Assembly: GCF_009184905.1 (NCBI RefSeq)
Contig: NZ_WESC01000001.1
Span: 62,001 to 126,000 of the forward strand
Source of the DNA: Parvibaculum sedimenti
Lineage (GTDB): Bacteria; Pseudomonadota; Alphaproteobacteria; Parvibaculales; Parvibaculaceae
DNA length: 64,000 bases
Reading direction: 5' to 3'
Positions 35,994 through 48,285 of the stretch are shown here, piece after piece. The position numbers were made by a program, and so were the translations under genes. Positions within the stretch are counted from its first letter, which is position 1; every line of letters begins with the position of its first letter. Below the pieces are notes generated by a model. That model was not told the DNA's origin and did no database searches. It saw nothing but the letters and a program-made list of their open reading frames with translations.

Positions 35994-37241
35994 ATGCTGA
36001 GGCCCAAGGCTGAGAAGCTCGCGCTTGACGGAAGGCCAGATCTGAAGGATCCGGACCTCTATCTGCGCGGCGATCATCACGAGATTTTCCGGACGTTACG
36101 CGTGCGGGAGCCGGTTTACTGGAATCCGGAAGCCGATAGCACGGGCTTCTGGGCGATCACGCGCTATGACGACATAGAAGCGATTTCGAAAAGTCCGAAG
36201 CTCTTCTCGTCCGCCAAGCAGATGGGCGGGCACCGGATCTTCAACGAGAACGAGATTGAGGAGAACCAGACCGATGCGACCATGATCTCCATGGATCCGC
36301 CGGAACACGCCTCCTATCGCCGCATGATCACGCCGGGCTTTGTCCCGAAGCGCATATCGAACATGGAGGAGCGCATCAGAGCCCGCGTGACGCGGCTTCT
36401 CGACAATCTGCCGAAGACCGGCGAGGCGGAATTCGTGTCCGCCGTTGCTGCCGCCCTGCCCATCGAAGTTCTGGCAGAGCTCTTCGGCGTGCCGGAGAGC
36501 GATGGGCCGAAACTCTTCGAATGGTCGAACGCGACCGTCGGCGAAGACGACCCGGAGCTACGGGTTTCCGACGAATATATGCGCAAATGCGTGGGCGAGA
36601 TGGCGGGGTACGCCGCCGGGCTCTGGCAGAAGCGGTTGGAAAATCCGGGCGAGGATCTGATCTCGATGCTCGTCCATTCCAAGATCGACGGCGAGCCCCT
36701 CACCTTCCCCGCCTATATCGGCACCTTCATTCTGCTTGTCGTTGCCGGCAACGAGACGACGCGCAATTCGATCTCGGGCGGGCTGCTCGCTCTCTCCGAG
36801 CACCCGGAGGAACGACGGAAACTTCTCGATGACCCCTCGCTCATTCCCTCCGCCGTTCAGGAGATTGTGCGCTGGGTTAGCCCCGTCCTCCACATGCGCC
36901 GCACGGCGACGGAAGACACGGAAATCCGCGGGCAGAAGATCGCCAGGGGCGACAAGGTCGTGATGTGGTACGCCTCGGCCAATCGCGACGAGGCGCAATG
37001 GGAAGACCCCTATCGCTTCGACGTGACGCGCTTCCGCTCGGCGGCGGCGCCGACACAGCTCGGCTTTGGTGCCGGGCAGCATTTCTGCCTGGGCTCGCGC
37101 CTTGCCGAATTGCAGCTCACGGTGCTCTTCGAGGAGTTGTTGAAGCGGTTTCCGGATATTCACGTCTCGGGTTCGGTGCGCCGTCTGCGCTCGAATTTCA
37201 TCTCCGGCATCAAGGAAATGCCGGTGCGTTACAGCGTCTGA
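35994..37241 (+). CDS. Cytochrome P450
   Basis: Soluble bacterial class I P450 of 415 residues. Oxygen-binding helix VVAGNETTRNS, ExxR in QEIVRWV, and haem loop FGAGQHFCLGSRLAE with the Cys ligand at residue 365. SMDPPEHASYRRMITPGF is common to bacterial P450s of the terpene and steroid groups, so those substrates are possible. No ferredoxin or reductase gene is adjacent. The start follows GGGAGG. The gene ends in a strong terminator. Confidence 0.93.
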   Translation: MLRPKAEKLALDGRPDLKDPDLYLRGDHHEIFRTLRVREPVYWNPEADSTGFWAITRYDDIEAISKSPKLFSSAKQMGGHRIFNENEIEENQTDATMISMDPPEHASYRRMITPGFVPKRISNMEERIRARVTRLLDNLPKTGEAEFVSAVAAALPIEVLAELFGVPESDGPKLFEWSNATVGEDDPELRVSDEYMRKCVGEMAGYAAGLWQKRLENPGEDLISMLVHSKIDGEPLTFPAYIGTFILLVVAGNETTRNSISGGLLALSEHPEERRKLLDDPSLIPSAVQEIVRWVSPVLHMRRTATEDTEIRGQKIARGDKVVMWYASANRDEAQWEDPYRFDVTRFRSAAAPTQLGFGAGQHFCLGSRLAELQLTVLFEELLKRFPDIHVSGSVRRLRSNFISGIKEMPVRYSV

Positions 37242-37923: not shown

Positions 37924-40278
37924 TCAGTGCGCCATAATGCTCTTGCGGTGCCTTACCGGCACACGTCGCGGGAAGATCATGTCGAGAATGACGGCGAGGG
38001 CCGGCAGGACGGTGATCGCCATGACCATGTTGACCAGGAACATGAAGGTCAGCAGCAGGCCCATATCGGCCTGGAACTTGAGCGCCGAGAAAGCCCAGGT
38101 CGAGACGCCGATGGCCAGCGTGATGGCGGTGAAGAAGGTCGCCATGCCGGTCTCGAGGAGCGCCATCTGGAAACACTCGGTGATGTTCCGGCCCTCCGCC
38201 AGATGGAACTGGATACGGTTATAAATGTAAAAGGCATAGTCGACGCCGATACCGACCGCGAGCACCATGACCGGTAGCGTCGCGACGGTGAGGCCGATCT
38301 GCAGCACCTCCATGAACCAGTAGCCGAAGAAGGTCGCGAAGGTGAGCGGCAGGCAGCAGGCGATGACCGCCCGCCAGTCGCGATAGGTCAGCGTGACCAG
38401 CGCGATGATGACCACATAGACCCAGATCATCATCGGCAGTTCGGATTGCGAGATTTCCTCGTTCACGGCCGCCTGTACGCCCATGTTGCCCGAGGCAAGG
38501 CGGATGTTGACGCCCTTCATATTGTGAGCGGCGCGGAACGCCTTGACCGATGCGACGACGGTGGCGATGGTCGTTGCCTTCGCGTCCTTCAGATAGATGA
38601 GATGCGGAAGCAGCGTGCATTCCTGATTCATGATGGCACTCTGGCCGGGAACCGAGGCGACGGCTTGCGCGAGTGCGTCCTTGTTGCGCGGAATGGCCTG
38701 CCATTTGAGGTTGCCCTCGTTCCATCCGGCTGACGATGACTTGACCGCGAAGGGCAGCGACAGGACGAGGCTCACACCCGGCGTGTTCTCCATGTGCCAA
38801 GAGAACTGATCAAGGAATTTGAGCGTCTCATAATCGACGCAGGCATCCGGCGGCGTTTCGACGACGACGGTAAGCTGATTGAGACCAAGAGCGAATTTCG
38901 ATGCGACGTCGCGCGAGTCCACATTGTAGCGCGAGTCTTCCCGCAATTCCGGCGCCCCCGCATGAAGCGCGCCCACATGCCGGTTGCGGCTCTCCCAGGC
39001 CGCGTAGCCGAAAAGCGTGAAGGAAACGACAAGTACGACAACCGCGTTGCGCGGTTCGGCCACCTTGCCCAGCCAGCGCATGATCTTCAGACGGAATTCG
39101 CGGGAGCGAGCGACGCGGTTTACGAAATCCTTGTCGAATGTCATGTAGCTCACCACGAGCGGCAGCATAACGAGATTGGTGATGATCTTGAGTGCAACAC
39201 CGATCGAGGCCGTGATGGCCAGCTCGCGGATCATGCCCACGGGGATGAGATAAAGCGTCCCGAAGCCGACAAGCGCCGTGGTGAGCGCCATAGTTCCGGG
39301 CACCAGAAGTCCCGAAAAGCTCGCCCTCGCCGCTTCTTCGCTCGTCGCGCCGTTGCTCAATTCCGCCGTGATGAGGTTGATCTGCTGCACACCGTGGCTG
39401 ACGCCGATGGCGAAGACGAGGAAGGGAACGAGGATCGCCAGCGGGTCGAGACCGTAGCCGAGCAGATTCAGCAGCGCGAATTGCCACACGACCGAAGTGA
39501 GCGAAGAGAAGAGCGTGGCGAAGGTGAGCAGCACCGAGCGCGAATAGAGATAGACCGATAGTGCTGTGAGCAGGAAGGCGATCAGGAAGAAGACGAGAAC
39601 GCCATTGGCGCCCGCGGCGATGTCGCCCACCGACTTCGCGAAGCCGATGATGCGGACCGTATACTGATCGTTTTCATATTTCTGTCGAATCTGCTTTTCG
39701 AGCTTGTCGGCCAGATCGAAGTAGTCGAGCTTCTGGCCGGTCGAGGGGTCGTAATCCTGCAGTTCGGCAGAGACCATCGCGGCGGTAAAATCGTTCGACA
39801 CGAGGCGTCCGACGAAGCCGCCGCGAATGACGTTGCTCTCGATCTTGGTCAATGCCTTCGGCGTCATCGTGTCGGCGGTGACCTTACCGGAAATCACATC
39901 TTCGGCGCTGATGCCGTCCTCGGTGATTTCGCGGTAGCGCGTATTGGGTGTCCAGAGCGAGGTGACTGTCGGGCGCGACACGCCGGGCAGAAAGAAGATT
40001 TCATCGGTGAGGTTCTTGTAGACCTTGAAGAAATCCTTGTTCCAGATCGTGCCCTGCTTGGGCTCCAGAACCACGATGATGCGGTTCGAGCCGAAGAGCT
40101 GGTCGCGATATTGCTGGAAGGTCTGGATGTATTCGTGGCCGATCGGCAATTGCTTGTCGAAGCCCGCCGTCATGTGGAGCTGGAAGGCGAAGTAAAGTCC
40201 GAAGGCCGTGACGCAAGCGAGCGTCGCCAGGATGACGACGCGGAGTCTGAAGACCAGATTCTCGAGAAACTTGATCAT
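37924..40278 (-). CDS. RND/MMPL superfamily membrane exporter
   Basis: Inner-membrane transporter of 784 residues with the two-fold RND layout: one helix near the N-terminus, a large periplasmic loop, a bundle (VLVFFLIAFLLTALSVYLY onwards), a second loop and a second bundle. PVMVLAVGIGVDYAFYIYNR carries the conserved Asp and Tyr of MMPL proton relays. It is smaller than AcrB-type pumps and resembles the lipid or hydrophobic-compound exporters seen beside P450 and steroid or alkane genes. Divergent from diiron protein 1, with a shared 495-nt control region. Confidence 0.9.
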   Translation of the reverse strand: MIKFLENLVFRLRVVILATLACVTAFGLYFAFQLHMTAGFDKQLPIGHEYIQTFQQYRDQLFGSNRIIVVLEPKQGTIWNKDFFKVYKNLTDEIFFLPGVSRPTVTSLWTPNTRYREITEDGISAEDVISGKVTADTMTPKALTKIESNVIRGGFVGRLVSNDFTAAMVSAELQDYDPSTGQKLDYFDLADKLEKQIRQKYENDQYTVRIIGFAKSVGDIAAGANGVLVFFLIAFLLTALSVYLYSRSVLLTFATLFSSLTSVVWQFALLNLLGYGLDPLAILVPFLVFAIGVSHGVQQINLITAELSNGATSEEAARASFSGLLVPGTMALTTALVGFGTLYLIPVGMIRELAITASIGVALKIITNLVMLPLVVSYMTFDKDFVNRVARSREFRLKIMRWLGKVAEPRNAVVVLVVSFTLFGYAAWESRNRHVGALHAGAPELREDSRYNVDSRDVASKFALGLNQLTVVVETPPDACVDYETLKFLDQFSWHMENTPGVSLVLSLPFAVKSSSAGWNEGNLKWQAIPRNKDALAQAVASVPGQSAIMNQECTLLPHLIYLKDAKATTIATVVASVKAFRAAHNMKGVNIRLASGNMGVQAAVNEEISQSELPMMIWVYVVIIALVTLTYRDWRAVIACCLPLTFATFFGYWFMEVLQIGLTVATLPVMVLAVGIGVDYAFYIYNRIQFHLAEGRNITECFQMALLETGMATFFTAITLAIGVSTWAFSALKFQADMGLLLTFMFLVNMVMAITVLPALAVILDMIFPRRVPVRHRKSIMAH

Positions 40279-40634
40279 TGGAGCACACCTGTCTCTGTCC
40301 TGCCTTCCTGATATGGAAGGCAGGTCCGGTTACGAAGCCAAAATCAACTCGCATCCGGTGCGGCCTCGCTCCCTTGCGGGTGCGTGAAGCCGACCGGCGC
40401 AATCATCCGGTTCGCATCGGAGGTTGCCGACAGGCATTTGCGCCACCGTTTGTCGCGGCGCTTTTCGTGTAATCCGGCAGGATTACCCCTCCCTTTGCGC
40501 CATCCCTCTTTCGTCAGCACACGGCCCCCACCGCTTTCCGACCGGGATGGTCTTTCCCTCTTGCATTATCGATAGCACGGGCCGGGTAAATTAAACAATT
40601 TACAATTGTGAAAATAAGGAATCCTTCACAAACC

Positions 40635-40648
40635 TGACGCCCCCGTCA
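40635..40648 (+). promoter_or_regulatory. Shared palindromic operator, copy 1
   Basis: TGACG-CCCC-CGTCA followed by TTTTTTC. It matches the copies at 43379-43392 and 43421-43434 as TGACGC-N4-GTCAT with a T tract. It ends 7 nt before the -35 of the diiron protein 1 promoter. Confidence 0.65.
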
Positions 40649-40655
40649 TTTTTTC

Positions 40656-40773: not shown

Positions 40774-41907
40774 ATGAGCGAAGTGCGCCAGATCACCAAA
40801 GACAATGCCTACGACGCCGTCGCTCCCGACGATTTCCCGTCGATGATGGATGTGGACCGCTACGGCGCCCGTTCGACCGCTTTCGACAAGATCATTTCCG
40901 CGACCCATGACCATTTCTGGGATCCGCTGGACACGAAGTACATCGACTTCTCGGAAGGCTTTGACATCGAGAACGAGATGATCCTCCCCGAGGAACTGGT
41001 TCTCGAACTGACACTCCCGAGCTTCCAGGCTCTGACTCAGAAGCAGCGCGTGCGCTTCGCCAATGAGTCGGCCCGCTGGATCCTCTCCGCCATTCTTCAC
41101 GGCGAACAGGGCGCGCTGAACCTCTCCGCCTCGCTCTGCCACATTCTCCGCGATCCGGGCGCTCAGGAATATGCCGCGAACCAGACGCGCGAAGAGGCCC
41201 GCCACGTCACGGCCTTCGCGAAATACGTCCAGGCGCGTTGGGGCAAGCCGCTCCCCGTCGGCCAGACGCTTGGCGATCTCCTCACCGACATCGTCGGCGC
41301 GCCGGAGGTCTACAAGAAGATCGTCGGCATGCAGATGCTGGTCGAAGGCCTCGCCATGGGCGCCTTCGCGATGCTCTACTCGACCGCGCGCGATCCGCTT
41401 CTCGTGAAGCTGACGCAGCTTGTCATGACGGACGAAGCCTTCCACCACAAGTTCGGCAAGATCTGGGCTGACCGCACCATTCCGAAGCTCAGCAAGGAAG
41501 AGCAGGAGATCATTGAGGATTGGGCGGCGTCCTGCTTCCAGACGCTGCTCTTCAACCTCGTGAACCCCGAGCAGAAGAAGATCCTCTATGGCGAGTTCGG
41601 TCTCGACTGGCAGCAGGTCCAGAATGAGATGATCGAGGCGATCTCGGACGAGAAGCGCCGCGAGGACATGAAGCAGTCGACCAACATCTTCCGTGTTCTG
41701 ATCAAGACGCTGCTCAAGGCCGGCATCATCACCGAGCGCACCAAGGCTTTCTATGCGGTCTATGTCGACATGGACGAGCTGAAGGGCGAAGGCGACCGCA
41801 TGGTCGGCGACGACATCGCCGAGGATGGCATCCGCTTCCTCCAGAAGATCAACTTCGGCGCCAATGTGGACGCGCTGCGGAATGTCACGATTTCGGCCGC
41901 CGAATAA
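40774..41907 (+). CDS. Ferritin-like diiron protein 1 (probable oxygenase/oxidase)
   Basis: A 377-residue four-helix-bundle protein with a full diiron ligand set: Glu111 (HGEQGALN), Glu141 and His144 (EEARH), Glu191 (LVEGLA by alignment with the paralogue) and Glu221 with His224 (DEAFHHKF). The E-x30-ExxH repeat spacing is that of diiron oxygenases and desaturases. Substrate unknown; the AurF and acyl-ACP-desaturase families are distant possibilities. It is closely similar to the protein at 43531-44652 over its whole length. The start at 40774 follows GGAGG and matches the paralogue. Confidence 0.85.
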   Translation: MSEVRQITKDNAYDAVAPDDFPSMMDVDRYGARSTAFDKIISATHDHFWDPLDTKYIDFSEGFDIENEMILPEELVLELTLPSFQALTQKQRVRFANESARWILSAILHGEQGALNLSASLCHILRDPGAQEYAANQTREEARHVTAFAKYVQARWGKPLPVGQTLGDLLTDIVGAPEVYKKIVGMQMLVEGLAMGAFAMLYSTARDPLLVKLTQLVMTDEAFHHKFGKIWADRTIPKLSKEEQEIIEDWAASCFQTLLFNLVNPEQKKILYGEFGLDWQQVQNEMIEAISDEKRREDMKQSTNIFRVLIKTLLKAGIITERTKAFYAVYVDMDELKGEGDRMVGDDIAEDGIRFLQKINFGANVDALRNVTISAAE

Positions 41908-41927
41908 TCCGGTCGGGCACGAATGCG

Positions 41928-41958
41928 AAAGGGCGGCTCCATGGAGCCGCCCTTTTTC
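41928..41958 (+). terminator. Terminator after diiron protein 1
   Basis: AAAGGGCGGCTCC / GGAGCCGCCCTTT, a 13-bp stem with an AT centre, then TT and a T-rich tail. Strong. Confidence 0.88.
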
Positions 41959-42027
41959 TTTGTCGATATGCCGGAGCCCAAATTCCTCCCCCTTTTCAGA
42001 GGGAGGAAGAGGCGCTTGCTGAAATGA

Positions 42028-43305
42028 TTAGGCCCGCTTCGGCAGCTGAACCATCAGCTCTTCATAGCCCTTCACGAAGCTCGAATGAACGCGACGGGGT
42101 TCAGAAAGAACTTCAATTGGCTGGTTCGGCCAACGCTTCAGGATTTCTTCCCAGATGATGCGGAGTTGCATCTCGGCGAGGCGGTTGCCGACGCAGCGAT
42201 GAATTCCGAAGCCGAAGGAGATGTGCTGACGCGCACGCGGGCGGTCGATCACGAGTTCGTTCGGATTCTCGATCACCTCGTCGTCGCGGTTGCCCGAGAC
42301 GTACCACATGGCCACCTTGTCGCCCTTGCGGATCTTCTGGCCGCCGAGTTCGACGTCCTGAAGCGCGGTGCGACGCATATAGGCCAGCGGCGTCTGCCAG
42401 CGGATGATTTCCGACACCATGTTCGGCACGATGCCGGGGCCCTGCTCCAGTAGCTTCTTGTACTGGTTCGGGAAGAGGTTCAGCCCGTAAAGGCCGCCCG
42501 AGATCGAGTTACGCGTCGTGTCGTTGCCGCCGACGATGAGGAGGATCAGGTTTCCGAGATACTCCATCTTGTCCATGTTCCGGGTCGACTCGCCATGCGC
42601 CAGCATGGAGATGAGGTCGTTGCCGGGCTCGCGCGCATTGACGCGCTCGTTCCAGAGACCCATGAAATATTCGGCGCATTCGAGCAGTTCGGCGCGGCGC
42701 TGATCTTCGGACTCAATGATTCCCGAATCCGTCGAAGCGGTCGCGACGTCCGACCAGCGGGTCAGCTTGCGGCGCTCCTCGAAGGGGAAGTCGAACAGCG
42801 TGGCGAGCATCTGCGTCGTCAGTTCGATCGAGACGCGATCCACCCAGTTGAAGGGCTCGTTCTCGGGCAGGCTGTCGAGAATCTTGCCCGCGCGTTCACG
42901 GATGAGACCTTCGAGCTTGGCCAGATTGGCCGGAGCGACGATGGGGCTCACGGTCTTGCGCTGGTCGTCATGCTTCGGCGGATCCATCGCAATGAACATG
43001 GGCAGCTTGAAGTCTTCATCCTGGTCGCGCAGCGTGATGCCGCCTTCCGACGAGAAGACTTGATGGTTCGTGTCCACCGAGACGATGTCGTTGTACTTGG
43101 TCACCGACCAGTAGGCGCCGGCATCTTCATTGTGCGGACAATAATGAACGGGCGCTTCCTTGCGGAGGCGCTCGAAATAGGGCCACATCTTGTTGGTGCG
43201 GAACAATTCGGGCTTGGCGACATCGATTTCCGAAAGCGGAATCGAATAGGCCTCTTCAACGGCTTCCGCCGAGCTCAGGCCGGACGTCTTGATGGCAATT
43301 CCCAT
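42028..43305 (-). CDS. CYP153-family cytochrome P450 (alkane terminal hydroxylase)
   Basis: Hydroxylates medium-chain alkanes or fatty acids at the terminal carbon in the CYP153 family. 425 residues. Family marks: GAYWSVTKYNDIVSVDTN, FIAMDPPKHDDQRKTVSP, LIVGGNDTTRNSISGGLYG (I helix), SEIIRWQTPLAYMRRT and the haem loop FGFGIHRCVGNRLAEMQ with Cys371. CYP153 enzymes need a ferredoxin and a reductase; neither is in this window. The start at 43305 follows GGAGGAGAGA. Divergent from diiron protein 2, sharing operator copies 2 and 3. Confidence 0.93.
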   Translation of the reverse strand: MGIAIKTSGLSSAEAVEEAYSIPLSEIDVAKPELFRTNKMWPYFERLRKEAPVHYCPHNEDAGAYWSVTKYNDIVSVDTNHQVFSSEGGITLRDQDEDFKLPMFIAMDPPKHDDQRKTVSPIVAPANLAKLEGLIRERAGKILDSLPENEPFNWVDRVSIELTTQMLATLFDFPFEERRKLTRWSDVATASTDSGIIESEDQRRAELLECAEYFMGLWNERVNAREPGNDLISMLAHGESTRNMDKMEYLGNLILLIVGGNDTTRNSISGGLYGLNLFPNQYKKLLEQGPGIVPNMVSEIIRWQTPLAYMRRTALQDVELGGQKIRKGDKVAMWYVSGNRDDEVIENPNELVIDRPRARQHISFGFGIHRCVGNRLAEMQLRIIWEEILKRWPNQPIEVLSEPRRVHSSFVKGYEELMVQLPKRA

Positions 43306-43378
43306 GGATCTCTCCTCCGTATTTTTATCTTGTTGAGATGAGCATAACCCTTGGGAAGCCTCGCGCCACAAAAAAAGA

Positions 43379-43392
43379 TGACATAGGCGTCA
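43379..43392 (-). promoter_or_regulatory. Shared palindromic operator, copy 2 (CYP153 side)
   Basis: Read on the - strand: TGACGCCTATGTCA then TCTTTTTTT. Arms TGAC/GTCA are perfect. It lies 73 nt upstream of the CYP153 start codon, in the divergent region. Confidence 0.6.
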
Positions 43393-43419
43393 CTTTCATA
43401 TTCAGAGACCCGCGTAAAG

Positions 43420-43447
43420 TTGACGCATCCGTCATTTTCCCTATAGC
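43420..43447 (+). promoter_or_regulatory. Candidate promoter of diiron protein 2
   Basis: TTGACG at 43420-43425 and TATAGC at 43442-43447, spacing 16. If this promoter is real, the overlapping palindrome would be a repressor site. A start further downstream (TAGCTT at 43468) with activation is the alternative. Confidence 0.45.
43421..43434 (+). promoter_or_regulatory. Shared palindromic operator, copy 3 (diiron 2 side)
   Basis: TGACGCATCCGTCA followed by TTTTCC; arms TGACG/CGTCA. It overlaps a -35-like TTGACG at 43420-43425. Confidence 0.65.
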
Positions 43448-43530
43448 CAAGCCCGCCTCGAAATCCCTAGCTTAATTGTGACTTTAGGCGGCGCCTCGGC
43501 GGACCGCCCCAGCCATAGGGAGAAAAGGGT

Positions 43531-44652
43531 ATGACCGAAGCCCGTCAGATTACGAAGGACAACGCCTACGAAGCCGTTTCGCCCGACGATTTCGAAGCGA
43601 TGATGAATGTCGAGCGCTACAACCGCCGCTCCGGCGCCTTCGACAAGATCATCTCGGCGACCCATGACCATTTCTGGGACCCGGTCGACCCCCGCTATAT
43701 CGACTTCAGCGAGCCCTTCGATCAGGAAAACGAGATGATGATCTCGCCCGATCTGGTGCCGGAACTGACGCTTCCCTGCTTCGCGGCCTTGTCCGAGAAG
43801 GAGAAGATCCGCTTCACGAACGAGACGGCGCGCTGGATGATGTCGGCGATCCTTCATGGCGAGCAGGGCGCGCTGAACCTCTCCGCCTCGCTGTGCCACA
43901 TCCTTCTCGATCCGGGCGCGCAGGAATATGCCGCGAACCAGGCGCGCGAAGAGGCCCGCCACGTGACGGCCTTCGCGGCCTATGTGAAATCGCGCTGGGG
44001 CAAGCCGCTTCCGGTCGGCGAGACGCTCGGCAGCCTCCTCTCCGAAATGGTCAATGCCAAGGAGGTCTACAAGAAGATCGTCGGCATGCAGCTCCTCGTC
44101 GAGGGCCTGGCGATGGGCACTTTCGCGACCTTCTTCAACACGGCGCGCGATCCCCTGCTGGTGAAGCTCTGCCAGCTCGCCATGACGGATGAGGCTTTCC
44201 ACCACAAGTTCGGAAAGATCTGGGCTGATCGCACGATCCCGAAGCTCACCCAGGAAGAGCGCGACATCATCGAGGACTGGGCAGCCAATGTCTTCCAGAC
44301 ACTGCTCTTCAACCTCGTGAACCCCGAGCAGAAGAAGGTCATCTATGCCGATTTCGGCCTCGACTGGCGGATCGTACAGGCCGAGATGCTCGAAGCGGTG
44401 ACGGACGAAGATCGTCGCGAAGGCATGAAGGATGCTGCCAACGTCTTCCGCGTTCTGGTGAAAACGCTGCTCAAGGCGGGCATCATCACCGACCGCACCA
44501 AGGCATTCTATGCGATCTATGTCGATATGGACGAGCTGAAGAACGAAGACGACCGCATGGTCGGCGATGATATCGCAGAGCAGGGCATCGCCTTTCTCAA
44601 GACCGTCAATTTCGGCGCGAAGAAGACCGCCCAGACAGTCGCTGCTGAATAA
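43531..44652 (+). CDS. Ferritin-like diiron protein 2 (paralogue of 40774-41907)
   Basis: A 373-residue protein, nearly collinear with diiron protein 1. Ligands: Glu111, Glu141, His144, Glu191, Glu221 and His224. The blocks HGEQGALNLSASLCHIL, EEARHVTAFA and FHHKFGKIWADRTIPKL are identical or nearly so in both copies. Differences lie mainly near residues 60-95 and the C-terminus (AKKTAQTVAAE). Probably a diiron oxygenase or oxidase of unknown substrate acting with CYP153. The ribosome site AGGGAGAAAAGGG is strong. Confidence 0.85.
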   Translation: MTEARQITKDNAYEAVSPDDFEAMMNVERYNRRSGAFDKIISATHDHFWDPVDPRYIDFSEPFDQENEMMISPDLVPELTLPCFAALSEKEKIRFTNETARWMMSAILHGEQGALNLSASLCHILLDPGAQEYAANQAREEARHVTAFAAYVKSRWGKPLPVGETLGSLLSEMVNAKEVYKKIVGMQLLVEGLAMGTFATFFNTARDPLLVKLCQLAMTDEAFHHKFGKIWADRTIPKLTQEERDIIEDWAANVFQTLLFNLVNPEQKKVIYADFGLDWRIVQAEMLEAVTDEDRREGMKDAANVFRVLVKTLLKAGIITDRTKAFYAIYVDMDELKNEDDRMVGDDIAEQGIAFLKTVNFGAKKTAQTVAAE

Positions 44653-44743: not shown

Positions 44744-45667
44744 ATGTTCGACCAATCCACAAGCGATGCCTTTCAGGCAAAGATCGCCGAAAAACTCGAA
44801 AATCTTCCATCCCCGCCCTGGCGTCTCGTCAGCGAGGGACTGTGGGGCAGCGTCTACGATCTCGGCGACGGCACGGTGCTGAAGCTGACCCGCCGGCATG
44901 GCGGGCTCGGGACCGGCGAGAGCAAGATCATCCGCGAAGCGGCCGCCTTGCGGCTGCTCGATGGCTTCTCGGGTCCTCGGCTCCGCGCACCGAAGCTCAT
45001 CGGGCAGGGGCTCTGGGACGATCCCTGGGGGTTCGGCAGCACCTATTCAGGTCCACCGCTTGCGGGCTGGCTCAGGTGCGAATTGATGCCCGGACGTCAT
45101 ATGGAGGAGGCAGGTTTCTTCGGTCGTGCCTCCGGCGACAGGGACCGCTTCGGCGAGGATCTCGGCGCGGCGATCGCCGATTTTCATCGCCTGACAGGCT
45201 CGTTGGTGCCCGACGCCGCGAAGCTCGGCGACAGTCTGATGCGAAGCCTCGACGAGGCGATGACGCGCATCAGCGCGGCGGAGCAGCGCCGCAAGCTCGA
45301 CGCGCTGAAAGAGGCGTGGCGCCGTGACGCGCCCGCGCCCGTTTTTTTGCATGGCGACCTCAATCTCTCCAATGTGCTCGAAGAGCGTCGAGATGGTCTT
45401 GCTTTCATCGACTTCGCGGAAGCCGGCGTCGGCGCGCCGGAAGCCGATCTCAGGCATTTCGAAAATGCAGGGCCGCTCCGTGATGCCATTTTCCGCGGCT
45501 ATGCTGCGGCCTCGGGCGCGAGCCCCAATCTTCCGCGCTACCGGCTCGCGGTTGCCGTCAATGCGGCCGTTTCGCTGGCACTCGGCGGCGAGAGCGGCCA
45601 TCCGCGCGAAGGGCTTCGCCGCCGCCAATGGCTCGACGAGGCGCTGGCACAGGCCGGGATAGATTGA
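44744..45667 (+). CDS. Aminoglycoside phosphotransferase (APH) family kinase
   Basis: Small-molecule kinase fold, 307 residues. VFLHGDLNLSNVLE is the catalytic loop and LAFIDFAEAGVGAPEADL the metal-binding Asp loop. The N-terminal part has a Gly-rich strand and Lys (GSVYDLGDGTVLKLTRR). Despite the name, most chromosomal members are not antibiotic resistance genes; relatives act on homoserine, choline or unknown metabolites. The downstream mmcB gene lies about 40 nt away. Confidence 0.85.
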   Translation: MFDQSTSDAFQAKIAEKLENLPSPPWRLVSEGLWGSVYDLGDGTVLKLTRRHGGLGTGESKIIREAAALRLLDGFSGPRLRAPKLIGQGLWDDPWGFGSTYSGPPLAGWLRCELMPGRHMEEAGFFGRASGDRDRFGEDLGAAIADFHRLTGSLVPDAAKLGDSLMRSLDEAMTRISAAEQRRKLDALKEAWRRDAPAPVFLHGDLNLSNVLEERRDGLAFIDFAEAGVGAPEADLRHFENAGPLRDAIFRGYAAASGASPNLPRYRLAVAVNAAVSLALGGESGHPREGLRRRQWLDEALAQAGID

Positions 45668-45708
45668 CGCCTTGAAGACTCCATCGGCCAAAGCGTAGCT
45701 TGAGCCCC

Positions 45709-46185
45709 ATGGCCAATTTCAGCGACGAAACAGAGGACTCATTCCGCCTCTTTGACGGGCGTCAATCCGCAACGGCGGCCGCCGTGCAGCGCGGTTGCGG
45801 TCGTCTTCTCGCGCAGATGAACTATGCAGCGCTTACCGAACTCACGCTCGCTACGGGCCGCCGCGCCGACATCATTGCGCTGGGCCCCAAGGGCGAGATC
45901 ATCATCATCGAAATCAAGTCGAGCCTCACCGACTATCTGACGGATGGAAAGTGGGAAGACTATCTCGACTTTTGCGACCGCTTCTTTTTCGCCGTGCCGC
46001 CGGATTTTCCGCGCGAGGTCATCCCGCTCGATGTCGGCCTCATCATCGCTGACAAGTACGATGCGGAAATCCTGCGCGAAGGAGAGCATGACGTGCAGCT
46101 GCCCGCCGCCCGACGAAAGGCGCTGACGCTGCAATACGCCCGCGTCGCCGCGAGGCGCGTGTTCCGGATTCTGGATGTGGAGTGA
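45709..46185 (+). CDS. mmcB: MmcB family DNA repair protein (DUF1052)
   Basis: Alphaproteobacterial protein of 158 residues, implicated in DNA-damage response in Caulobacter. The core GRRADIIALGPKGEIIIIEIKSS carries the Asp...Glu-x-Lys arrangement of PD-(D/E)XK nucleases, followed by DFCDRFFFAVPPDFP. The start at 45709 is preferred over a TTG 9 nt upstream. Convergent with regA, stopping 3 nt from it. Confidence 0.88.
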   Translation: MANFSDETEDSFRLFDGRQSATAAAVQRGCGRLLAQMNYAALTELTLATGRRADIIALGPKGEIIIIEIKSSLTDYLTDGKWEDYLDFCDRFFFAVPPDFPREVIPLDVGLIIADKYDAEILREGEHDVQLPAARRKALTLQYARVAARRVFRILDVE

Positions 46186-46188
46186 CGC

Positions 46189-46758
46189 TTACTTCGGCGC
46201 GCGCTTGGCGAGAATGCGCTGCAACGTCCGGCGATGCATGTTGAGCCGGCGGGCCGTCTCGGAAACATTGCGGTCGCAGAGTTCATAGACACGCTGAATG
46301 TGTTCCCACCGCACGCGATCCGCCGACATCGGATTTTCGGGCGGCGGCGCCTTGTCGCCGGTCTTGGCGAGCAGCGCGGCTTCGATGGCGTCGGCATCGG
46401 ACGGCTTGGCGAGATAGTCCACCGCGCCGAGCTTCACGGCGGCGACCGCTGTCGCGATATTGCCGTAGCCCGTCAGCACGACGATGCGCGCCTCGGGCCG
46501 TGCCTCCTGCATGGCGGCGACGACGTCGAGACCGTTGCCGTCTTCGAGGCGCAGGTCGACGACGGCGAAGCCCGGCTTTTTCGCGCGGGCCTGTTCGCGG
46601 CCTTCCTTGATCGTGTTCGCGGTCGTGACTTCATAGCCGCGCGCTTCCATGGCGCGGGCGAGGCGTGTCAGGAACGGCACGTCGTCATCGACGAGAAGGA
46701 GTGTCTTGTCTTCGGGAATGAAAGGCGCTGCGCCCTGATCCTCGATTTTCTCCGCCAT
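46189..46758 (-). CDS. regA: Response regulator RegA/ActR type
   Basis: Global redox response regulator of Alphaproteobacteria, partner of RegB. 189 residues: receiver with phosphoacceptor Asp68 (FAVVDLRLEDGNGLDV), Thr in VVLTGYGNIATA and Lys in YLAKPSDAD. The short C-terminal Fis-type helix-turn-helix VYELCDRNVSETARRLNMHRRTLQRILAKRAPK is the strongly conserved RegA signature. An upstream ATG at 46785 is also in frame. It lies 138 nt after the RegB gene on the same strand. Confidence 0.93.
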   Translation of the reverse strand: MAEKIEDQGAAPFIPEDKTLLLVDDDVPFLTRLARAMEARGYEVTTANTIKEGREQARAKKPGFAVVDLRLEDGNGLDVVAAMQEARPEARIVVLTGYGNIATAVAAVKLGAVDYLAKPSDADAIEAALLAKTGDKAPPPENPMSADRVRWEHIQRVYELCDRNVSETARRLNMHRRTLQRILAKRAPK

Positions 46759-46896
46759 GTGCTGCACGCTCTCTCTTCCTTCCATTTCGAAATGGCAGGC
46801 GCCGCCAACCTGTTTCGACTGCCGGATTTTAGGCCTTCCTGCGGCAATAGGCCAACTCAGGGAAAATCCCTATGTCAGGCTTGGCTTAGGCCCGCT

Positions 46897-48285
46897 TCAG
46901 GCAGGCATCGGAAAGGCTGATTCGGCCTCGATGGCCTGACGAGGCCAGACTACCTTGACCAGCGCACCCTGCTTGCCATCCGTGCGATTGGAGATTTCGA
47001 CCTTGGCGCGTGAGCGTTCGAGCAGTGTTTTCGCAATGAAGAAGCCGAGTCCCATGCCTTCGTGCTCGCTGCCCGGCTCGTTTGAGCGCGCGGCGCGTGG
47101 CCGTGTCGTGACATAGGGTTCGCCGATCTTCTCGATGACGTCGGGCGCGAAGCCCGGCCCGTCATCCATGATGGAAATGGCGATGTTGCGGTGGTCGTAT
47201 ACAACGGTCACGGCGACCTCGGCATGGGCGAAGTCGGCGGCGTTCTCGATGAAGTTGCCAAGGCCGTAGAGGATTTCGGGGCGGCGCCAGATTTCGGGTT
47301 CCGGCACATCCGGTTCACCCGCCTCGACGGAAATTCTGAAGGCCACATCCATGTCGCGGTGGGGTTTGACGATTTCGTCGAGCAGCACATGGAGCGGCAG
47401 GCGCGAATACAGCGCGTCCTCGCCCTTCGGTTCGCGCGAGAGCTTCGACAGGATGTCCTTGCAGCGCTCTGCCTGGCTGCGCAGCAGTTCGAGATCTTCC
47501 TCCATCTCCTTGGGGCTCAATCCGCCGCGCTGCAATTCCTTGGCGACGAGCGAGATGGTGCCGAGCGGCGTGCCGAGTTCATGGGCGGCGGCGGCGGCGA
47601 GGCCGTCGAGCGCGGAAAGACGCTGCGCGCGGGCCAGCACGAACTGCGTCGCCGACAGCGCCGCCGACATGCGCCGAGACTCCTGCGAGATGCGCCAGGC
47701 ATAGGCGGCCATGAAGCCGAGGCCGAGGGAGATCGCGGTCCAGTGGCCGACGATATAGAGCGAGGGAATGTTGATCGGCTCGCCCGGCTGCCAGGGCAGT
47801 GGCATGTGGAAGAAGGCAAGCAGCGTCACATAGACGAAGGAGAGCGAGAGCAGCGCAATGGTGCTGCGGAGCGAAAGCGTCGTCGCAGAAATCGTCACCG
47901 GCGCCATGAAGAGGAGCGCGAAGGGGTTCTGCAACCCGCCAGTAAGGAAGAGCAGCACCGCAAGCTCCATCAGGTCAATGGCGAAGTAGACGGCGGCCTG
48001 CCAGTCGGGCAGGCGCACGGTCGTGCGGTAGCGATGCGTAAGGAAGACGTTGAGCCATGCGGAGGCGGCAATCGCCGTCAGGCAAAGGCCGAGCGGTAGC
48101 GGAAACCTGAAGCCGAAATGAACGATGAGAATGGCCGCGAGCTGGCCGCCAAGCGCCAGCCAGCGCAGCAGCACCAGCGTCTGCAGACGTACACGGCCCG
48201 CTTCGGAGCCGACATCCGCATTTCCACTGGCGAGGAAACGCCGCCTCAGCCAGTCCATGCTCCCGCGGTCTTCGACAATAGCCAT
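46897..48285 (-). CDS. regB: Sensor histidine kinase RegB/ActS type
   Basis: Membrane sensor kinase of 462 residues that signals respiratory redox state. Six hydrophobic segments fill residues ~35-200. The quinone-contact motif GGLQNPF is at 116-122, the phosphorylated His is His235 in AAAHELGTPLGTI, and the redox Cys is Cys275 in QAERCKDIL. Catalytic ATPase boxes read NFIENAADFA, DDGPGF and GMGLGFFIAK. All known redox-sensing features of RegB are retained. RegA follows downstream. Confidence 0.93.
   Translation of the reverse strand: MAIVEDRGSMDWLRRRFLASGNADVGSEAGRVRLQTLVLLRWLALGGQLAAILIVHFGFRFPLPLGLCLTAIAASAWLNVFLTHRYRTTVRLPDWQAAVYFAIDLMELAVLLFLTGGLQNPFALLFMAPVTISATTLSLRSTIALLSLSFVYVTLLAFFHMPLPWQPGEPINIPSLYIVGHWTAISLGLGFMAAYAWRISQESRRMSAALSATQFVLARAQRLSALDGLAAAAAHELGTPLGTISLVAKELQRGGLSPKEMEEDLELLRSQAERCKDILSKLSREPKGEDALYSRLPLHVLLDEIVKPHRDMDVAFRISVEAGEPDVPEPEIWRRPEILYGLGNFIENAADFAHAEVAVTVVYDHRNIAISIMDDGPGFAPDVIEKIGEPYVTTRPRAARSNEPGSEHEGMGLGFFIAKTLLERSRAKVEISNRTDGKQGALVKVVWPRQAIEAESAFPMPA

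Follow-up and report, generated by a model that had tools for sequence, protein, structure and literature searches.

Two closely similar genes for predicted diiron proteins, here called diiron A and diiron B, stand on either side of a CYP153 cytochrome P450 gene in a 64,000-nucleotide stretch of the Parvibaculum sedimenti genome (contig NZ_WESC01000001.1, positions 62,001 to 126,000; hereafter the window, in whose own numbering coordinates are given unless another contig or locus is named). The intergenic regions of this locus hold copies of a palindromic DNA element that recurs ahead of oxidoreductase genes elsewhere in the same genome, and the grouping is consistent with a regulon for the oxidation of long aliphatic chains. 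The open reading frames (ORFs) and elements at its center are as follows.

40630-40653: palindromic element with 0 mismatches, between the MMPL transporter gene and diiron A
40774-41907, plus strand: diiron protein A (P0001), 377 amino acids, AurF/R2-like fold (by ORF call, family search, fold model and alignment)
42028-43305, minus strand: CYP153 cytochrome P450, 425 amino acids counted from the ATG at 43305 (the listed ORF begins further upstream at a TTG)
43374-43397: second palindromic element with 2 mismatches, between CYP153 and diiron B
43416-43439: palindromic element with 1 mismatch, between CYP153 and diiron B
43531-44652, plus strand: diiron protein B (P0002), 373 amino acids, paralogue of A

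The diiron protein family

Diiron A and B are co-oriented; CYP153 runs the opposite way, so that it converges with A and diverges from B. The initial annotation had described the diiron genes as divergently placed, which has to be corrected because both lie on the plus strand. Its account of two collinear proteins of 373-377 residues that keep all the named ligands and flank a CYP153 agrees with the ORFs, the alignment and the structural relatives of the P450. The best solved relatives of the central gene product are 6hqg (633 bits), 7ant (612 bits) and CYP153A7 3rwl (595 bits), compared with about 175-250 bits for CYP125-type structures.

The ligands E111, E141, H144, E191, E221 and H224, together with H225, are identical in all 150 distinct family members aligned, a set from which loci with frameshifts or cut ends were excluded and in which genes of the neighbor loci were called by a home-made ORF picker. 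The pattern E...ExxH...E...ExxH lies on a four-helix core, as expected of the ferritin-like carboxylate-bridged diiron superfamily. The only Pfam model above its cut-off was PF11583 (AurF), and it was barely so, with 30.7 bits for A and 37.8 bits for B against 29.6; the Pfam R2 model stayed below (19.9 and 18.8 bits against 33.6). The NCBIfam model for R2lox (NF006200) gave A 15.8 bits against a cut-off of 194 and did not list B, and the one for aldehyde-deformylating oxygenases (TIGR04059) was missed tenfold (21.7 and 18.2 bits against 222.65), while the nearest solved sequences were aldehyde decarbonylases at a profile E of 2e-4. N-oxygenases of the AurF/CmlI type have a third histidine ligand four residues ahead of the last ligand Glu; the corresponding position 217 is V in 122, A in 22 and T in 6 of the 150 members. 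In class Ia/b R2 proteins the radical Tyr lies four residues past the first ligand His, and in class Ia the first ligand is Asp; here F148 occupies the former position in 149 of 150 members and E111 the latter in all 150.

An AlphaFold2 model of diiron A (predicted local-distance score, pLDDT, 86.7; predicted template-modelling score, pTM, 0.88; 66 sequences) gave no Foldseek match at E <= 0.001 and 471 at E <= 10, R2 and AurF proteins leading. In VIA-align the same model was nearly tied between AurF (2jcd, Z 20.8), several R2 proteins, R2lox (6f6c, Z 19.9) and CmlI (5hyh, Z 19.8). Judged from this model and the family searches, the diiron proteins are assigned to the R2/AurF branch of the ferritin-like superfamily and to none of the characterised families tested; no characterised class unrelated to lipid oxidation, which the initial annotation named as a finding that would count against it, was found for them.

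The family was detected in each of the 40 genomes searched from the order of the window (best E <= 2.4e-160 in every one) and in 39 of 289 genomes sampled across the class (E <= 1e-60). The genome of the window itself carries a third close diiron copy (65%) and two distant paralogues.

The palindromic element

The upstream sequences of both diiron types have in common the palindrome AAAnnTGACG-N4-CGTCAnnTTT. The window contains two exact cores (TGACG-N3-6-CGTCA), one for each diiron gene, compared with a mean of 0.38 in shuffled sequences, of which 5 in 100 reach two. Of the bare core TGACG-N4-CGTCA the 3.7-Mb genome has 12 copies, two in the window, one each ahead of the reductase and GMC genes and eight elsewhere. 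When the A/T flanks were included and up to two mismatches allowed, six sites remained in the genome, all of them at named genes:

MMPL/diiron A intergenic region: one site
CYP153/diiron B intergenic region: two sites
C1, 160250: ahead of the reductase-ferredoxin operon
C4, 90043: ahead of the GMC dehydrogenase gene
C2, 102545: ahead of the third diiron gene, which faces an alpha/beta hydrolase gene

At up to three mismatches the true pattern found 17 sites and the reversed pattern three per strand. There are 11 three-mismatch sites, and among the nine that were fetched seven lie inside called reading frames (one, L248, by coordinates) and one inside a CYP153 gene on contig C37. Another three-mismatch site, at C37:105938 (L314), stands about 27-50 bases ahead of the likely ATG of an alpha/beta-hydrolase-like gene, the product being judged by eye; it is a possible seventh member of the regulon and, together with the hydrolase gene on C2, means that a hydrolase may belong to it. 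Among the ORFs seen, no obvious regulator gene adjoins any of the six sites, RegA being merely a neighbor of the locus.

The initial annotation noted that CYP153 systems normally have ferredoxin and reductase genes beside them and that these were absent. Locally this is so, as the window has no Fer2 match and all 10 Fer2 matches of the genome lie outside it, but it does not hold for the genome as a whole: a reductase-ferredoxin operon with the same palindrome is encoded at C1:158479-160139, ~33 kb beyond the right end of the window. The operon's FAD ferredoxin reductase has 3lxd and putidaredoxin reductase as its nearest solved relatives, and its partner is a [2Fe-2S] ferredoxin. Four further CYP153 genes occur in the genome (E <= 1e-100), two of them with their own adjacent ferredoxin gene, and none of the four has a palindrome site within two mismatches. 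The GMC protein scores above the cut-off of the NCBIfam choline-dehydrogenase subfamily (PRK02106) and misses the betA equivalog.

Orthologous loci gave counts that, for the reductase and GMC genes, are independent of how the motif was discovered. The palindrome was present at 29 of 30 reductase loci (30 fetched of 35 matches; the miss is L264) and at 28 of the 30 best GMC loci (the misses, L308 and L309, are from the sister genus), and the remaining 173 kb of these loci contained no site. For the diiron genes we counted 149 distinct genes having at least 200 bp upstream, dropping duplicates, short proteins and cut ends and accepting a site within 450 bp; 110 of them have the palindrome, 51 of 60 in the order of the window and 59 of 89 elsewhere. 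Outside the masked promoters a single site was found in 2.35 Mb. The CYP153 gene of the Parvibaculum locus is preceded by the palindrome in 15 of 15 cases, compared with none of nine other P450 starts from the same search in the same loci. Over all loci, duplicates included, a hand recount placed 132 of 170 bare cores upstream of diiron genes, 26 upstream of CYP153, six upstream of the reductase and six elsewhere.

The element also accompanies diiron genes in seven Caulobacteraceae-type loci, in which the reductase gene lies together with one to three diiron genes and a ferredoxin was recognised beside the reductase in most. Here the palindrome precedes 14 of 15 diiron genes and all six reductase genes with enough upstream sequence, the seventh reductase gene being truncated at the edge of its locus. 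A CYP153 gene was detected in none of the seven loci. By these sequence counts, the grouping of genes behind the palindrome is conserved in Parvibaculaceae and partly so in Caulobacteraceae-type loci. The co-regulation of the diiron proteins proposed in the initial annotation gains support from a conserved palindrome in both promoter regions, through which A, B and CYP153 would be controlled together. When 44 diiron promoters from Parvibaculaceae were combined into a consensus, 40 had a TTG three bases past the motif, possibly a -35 box; the TTG is missing at that spacing before the GMC, reductase and window B genes.

Gene neighborhood and the two copies

The comparison covered 60 fetched regions, 77 named loci and the window, some of which are the same places. 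The widespread core consists of an MMPL transporter gene divergent from a diiron gene, followed by MmcB-like, RegA-type and RegB-type genes, and is kept without CYP153 in other genera and families. The window has this core and several further features:

35994-37241, plus strand: second P450, with CYP125/CYP124 as the nearest solved structures and no palindromic element in front
37924-40278, minus strand: MMPL-family transporter (PF03176; under the NCBIfam HAE3 cut-off), divergent from diiron A and a neighbor of the diiron gene in many loci
41927-41956, plus strand: terminator-like hairpin 3' of diiron A, in the stretch where A and CYP153 converge, a consensus match only
44744-45667, plus strand: APH-like kinase, downstream neighbor of diiron B, conserved across family loci
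45700-46185, plus strand: MmcB-like protein, conserved neighbor
46189-46785, minus strand: ActR/PrrA/RegA redox response regulator, conserved neighbor
46897-48285, minus strand: ActS/PrrB/RegB redox histidine kinase, conserved neighbor

The second P450 sits upstream of the transporter in many Parvibaculum loci. Terminator-like hairpins were matched six times in the region, compared with 4.4 expected from shuffles.

Counting the window, 14 non-duplicate loci from the genus have CYP153 between the two copies; the initial annotation had named neighborhoods that never keep both near the P450 as evidence that would count against it. The exceptions within the genus are L065 and L066, with one copy and no CYP153 there, and L079 and L083, with two copies and no CYP153. 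An Hsp70-like gene (PF00012; related to the PRK11678 chaperone, under its cut-off) is located between diiron B and CYP153 in 12 of the 14 loci (L067, L069, L070, L076-L078, L080-L082, L133, L137 and L143) and is absent from the window and L068. In another family, locus L119 of genome G043 carries six co-oriented genes, separated by 4-69 bases, in the order diiron, [2Fe-2S] ferredoxin, CYP153, CYP153, GDSL lipase, diiron. An AMP-ligase gene lies further upstream, and the two CYP153 genes of the locus have no palindrome. The diiron genes of L119 group in the tree with the third tandem copies of L187 (Phenylobacterium) and L199 and not with the Parvibaculum pair, implying that diiron pairs joined CYP153 at least twice. 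This second origin lends weight to the link with CYP153 suggested in the initial annotation. In the Phenylobacterium locus a gene for a PlsY glycerol-3-phosphate acyltransferase (L187:12570-13241) separates the second diiron copy from the third. A third diiron type occurs in conserved sets with an AMP-ligase and two acyl-CoA dehydrogenase genes (L104, L106, L109 and L112, families checked on L104).

In the class sample CYP153 was present in 27 of the 39 genomes with the diiron family, compared with 39 of all 289. Fisher's test gave p of about 1e-19 by genome and about 1e-13 by family, with 140-150 families assumed and kinship ignored. A second P450 (P0004) was dropped as a control, because at the cut-off used it retrieved mostly the CYP153 genes themselves.

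A and B are identical at 278 of 363 aligned residues (77%) and are distinguished by 13 clade-diagnostic positions, one of them a gap; V217A, M188L and A197T are among the several that fall in the ligand helices. Purifying selection is seen in the ratio of nonsynonymous to synonymous changes (dN/dS), which was 0.03-0.14 in five orthologue comparisons and 0.25 between A and B. In a family tree built by a quick method with approximate likelihood-ratio (SH-aLRT) support only, copy A is the gene found in syntenic position throughout the family; copy B has a clade of its own (100 support, 21 rows), to which L072 from the sister genus also belongs, implying that the duplication is older than the split of the genera. 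The Caulobacteraceae-type copies branch elsewhere, so the tandem copies there would have duplicated independently. Single-copy relatives are found at the same locus in the sister genera g3 and g5. In one Parvibaculum genome a B-type diiron gene (L221, G030:C58:1163512-1164627) lies away from the main locus, in surroundings that look by eye like a cbb3 oxidase cluster; the B copy there (L145) has no palindromic element.

Because both copies keep all ligands, differ at diagnostic positions and are under purifying selection, A and B fit better as putative isoenzymes with differing substrate ranges than as an active and a structural subunit, and each would most likely be homodimeric. The initial annotation had considered an active/structural pair or a heterodimer; the retained ligands, the selection and the single-copy sister genera speak against an obligate pair.

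A putative regulon for aliphatic oxidation

The reading we favor, with a probability of roughly 0.5, is that A and B are isoenzymes of an undescribed group of soluble carboxylate-bridged diiron oxygenases of the AurF/R2/R2lox fold, belonging to a regulon that oxidises long aliphatic chains, either alkanes or fatty-acyl lipids. A single regulator would sense an aliphatic substrate or a related signal and switch the whole set via the palindrome. CYP153 would hydroxylate the chain end to give a terminal alcohol, which the GMC enzyme would oxidise. Chains of this kind would also be oxygenated or desaturated by the diiron enzymes, A and B each with its own substrate range, and the MMPL pump may transport a lipid that serves as substrate or arises as product. 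Acting in trans, the reductase and ferredoxin could pass electrons to CYP153 and the diiron enzymes alike, and since they sit with diiron genes without CYP153 in the Caulobacteraceae-type loci, they probably feed the diiron enzymes too. More tentatively, and with distinctly less confidence than in the regulon itself, the family might form one more class of bacterial enzymes that oxygenate alkanes or fatty-acyl chains. Its members would then be soluble diiron hydroxylases or desaturases that draw electrons from a reductase and ferredoxin of the putidaredoxin type, are tied to a CYP153 pathway and are governed by a dedicated undescribed regulator at a DNA site conserved across families of Alphaproteobacteria.

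Several observations weigh against this regulon. The A/T flanks were added to the pattern after the first four sites, including those at the reductase and GMC genes, had been seen, so that the count of six out of six in the own genome is partly circular; the specificity of the palindrome depends on those flanks, and the eight stray bare cores comprise five inside called reading frames and three outside. The site at the third diiron gene and the orthologous loci, whose counts carry the claim, are free of this circularity. In the window, the pair of sites in the CYP153/B intergenic region could act on either gene. No element was found within 450 bp of 39 of the 149 diiron genes, including both copies of L119 and the displaced B copy L145. 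In the loci surveyed outside Parvibaculum and L119, no CYP153 adjoins the diiron gene; 12 of the 39 family genomes have no CYP153 and 12 CYP153 genomes lack the family. Within the families f18, f49, f67, f91 and f116 the presence of one does not follow that of the other, and as the test takes no account of descent, the genome-level association may reflect ecology or descent and counts as supporting evidence only. The nearly tied fold scores place the family in no chemistry, and the nearest solved relative of the GMC protein is a choline dehydrogenase, which makes the alcohol-oxidation step only a guess.

A fairly unlikely explanation, in our view, is that the diiron proteins are auxiliary or protective oxidases, concerned with oxidative stress, iron or oxygen sensing or membrane-lipid repair, that accompany a leaky P450 producing reactive oxygen species and act on a different substrate. 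It would suit the widespread neighbors, which are a DNA-repair protein (MmcB-like) and the RegAB redox system and not alkane genes, and the fact that certain small genomes (1.4-2 Mb) and genomes lacking any CYP153 match retain the family. However, the same element precedes a GMC dehydrogenase and a P450-type reductase-ferredoxin pair, a set that looks catabolic, and another diiron type adjoins acyl-CoA dehydrogenases and an AMP-ligase. That A and B combine as subunits of a single heteromeric oxygenase is quite improbable: although the pair surrounds CYP153 in the 14 loci of the genus and both copies are old, as the sister-genus member of the B clade indicates, each keeps all ligands, H225 and the surrounding motifs, genera g3 and g5 manage with one copy at the same locus, and genome G030 has a B-type copy elsewhere on the chromosome.

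We likewise give little credence to a role as AurF/CmlI-type N-oxygenases or aldehyde-deformylating oxygenases acting on P450 products. PF11583 as the only Pfam family over its cut-off, the aldehyde decarbonylases as nearest solved sequences and AurF 2jcd at the top of the fold table would point that way, but all 150 members have V, A or T at position 217, where AurF has its additional histidine, the deformylase model reaches 18-22 bits against 222.65 and the top Z-scores are tied. Finally, the palindrome might act as an RNA hairpin, an attenuator or terminator, and not as a protein-binding operator. Both window cores do score as short terminator-like hairpins on the plus strand, among six region matches against 4.4 in shuffles; yet the palindrome is symmetric and lies between divergent genes, and the downstream TTG of 40 of the 44 pooled promoters, if a -35 box, would leave it untranscribed, so that a hairpin role seems quite unlikely.

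Several known systems share features with the diiron proteins or their locus. R2lox (6f6c, Z 19.9) is likewise a soluble dimetal-carboxylate protein with an R2 fold and a proposed alkane role, but A falls far under its NCBIfam cut-off and B is not listed by the model. They share with the AurF/CmlI arylamine N-oxygenases the fold (2jcd, 5hyh) and a Pfam match just above the cut-off, but have other gene company and no extra histidine ligand. The CYP153 omega-hydroxylase systems match in the clear CYP153 and in the P450-type reductase and ferredoxin behind the same element in the genome, whereas the electron partners are unlinked here and two diiron genes flank the P450. Cyanobacterial aldehyde-deformylating oxygenases align over the central helices around the ligand motifs, but their solved chains have 212-265 residues against about 375 here. 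CylC-type halogenases are described as distant relatives of AurF and as dimetal carboxylate enzymes acting on unactivated aliphatic carbon (PMC8406957), and would resemble the diiron proteins in these respects. A literature search, with most subscription journals outside its reach, found no description of this pair, regulon or motif, in agreement with the initial annotation, which knew of no system of this composition.

The regulon we favor would tie an uncharacterised diiron family to aliphatic oxidation by evidence beyond gene adjacency, names likely electron donors, and offers a DNA site as a handle for finding the regulator. It also indicates how a CYP153 whose gene has no ferredoxin gene nearby could receive electrons and, if the chemistry is true, would add a soluble, genetically simple oxygenase to AlkB, CYP153 and LadA.

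More distant relatives were also seen. In the own genome, an AurF-like paralogue (L213, C34:238318-239484; 33% identity) is flanked by a [2Fe-2S] ferredoxin gene immediately upstream and a PAS-domain gene downstream, which again hints at ferredoxin as the electron source for this branch of the superfamily. A tblastn search of plasmids gave six records with distant or unannotated relatives. In a Burkholderia cenocepacia plasmid record the matched stretch carries no annotation, and on a Rhodococcus opacus plasmid (L211) a distant ferritin-like relative (36% over half of the query) adjoins ferredoxin and molybdopterin oxidoreductase genes.

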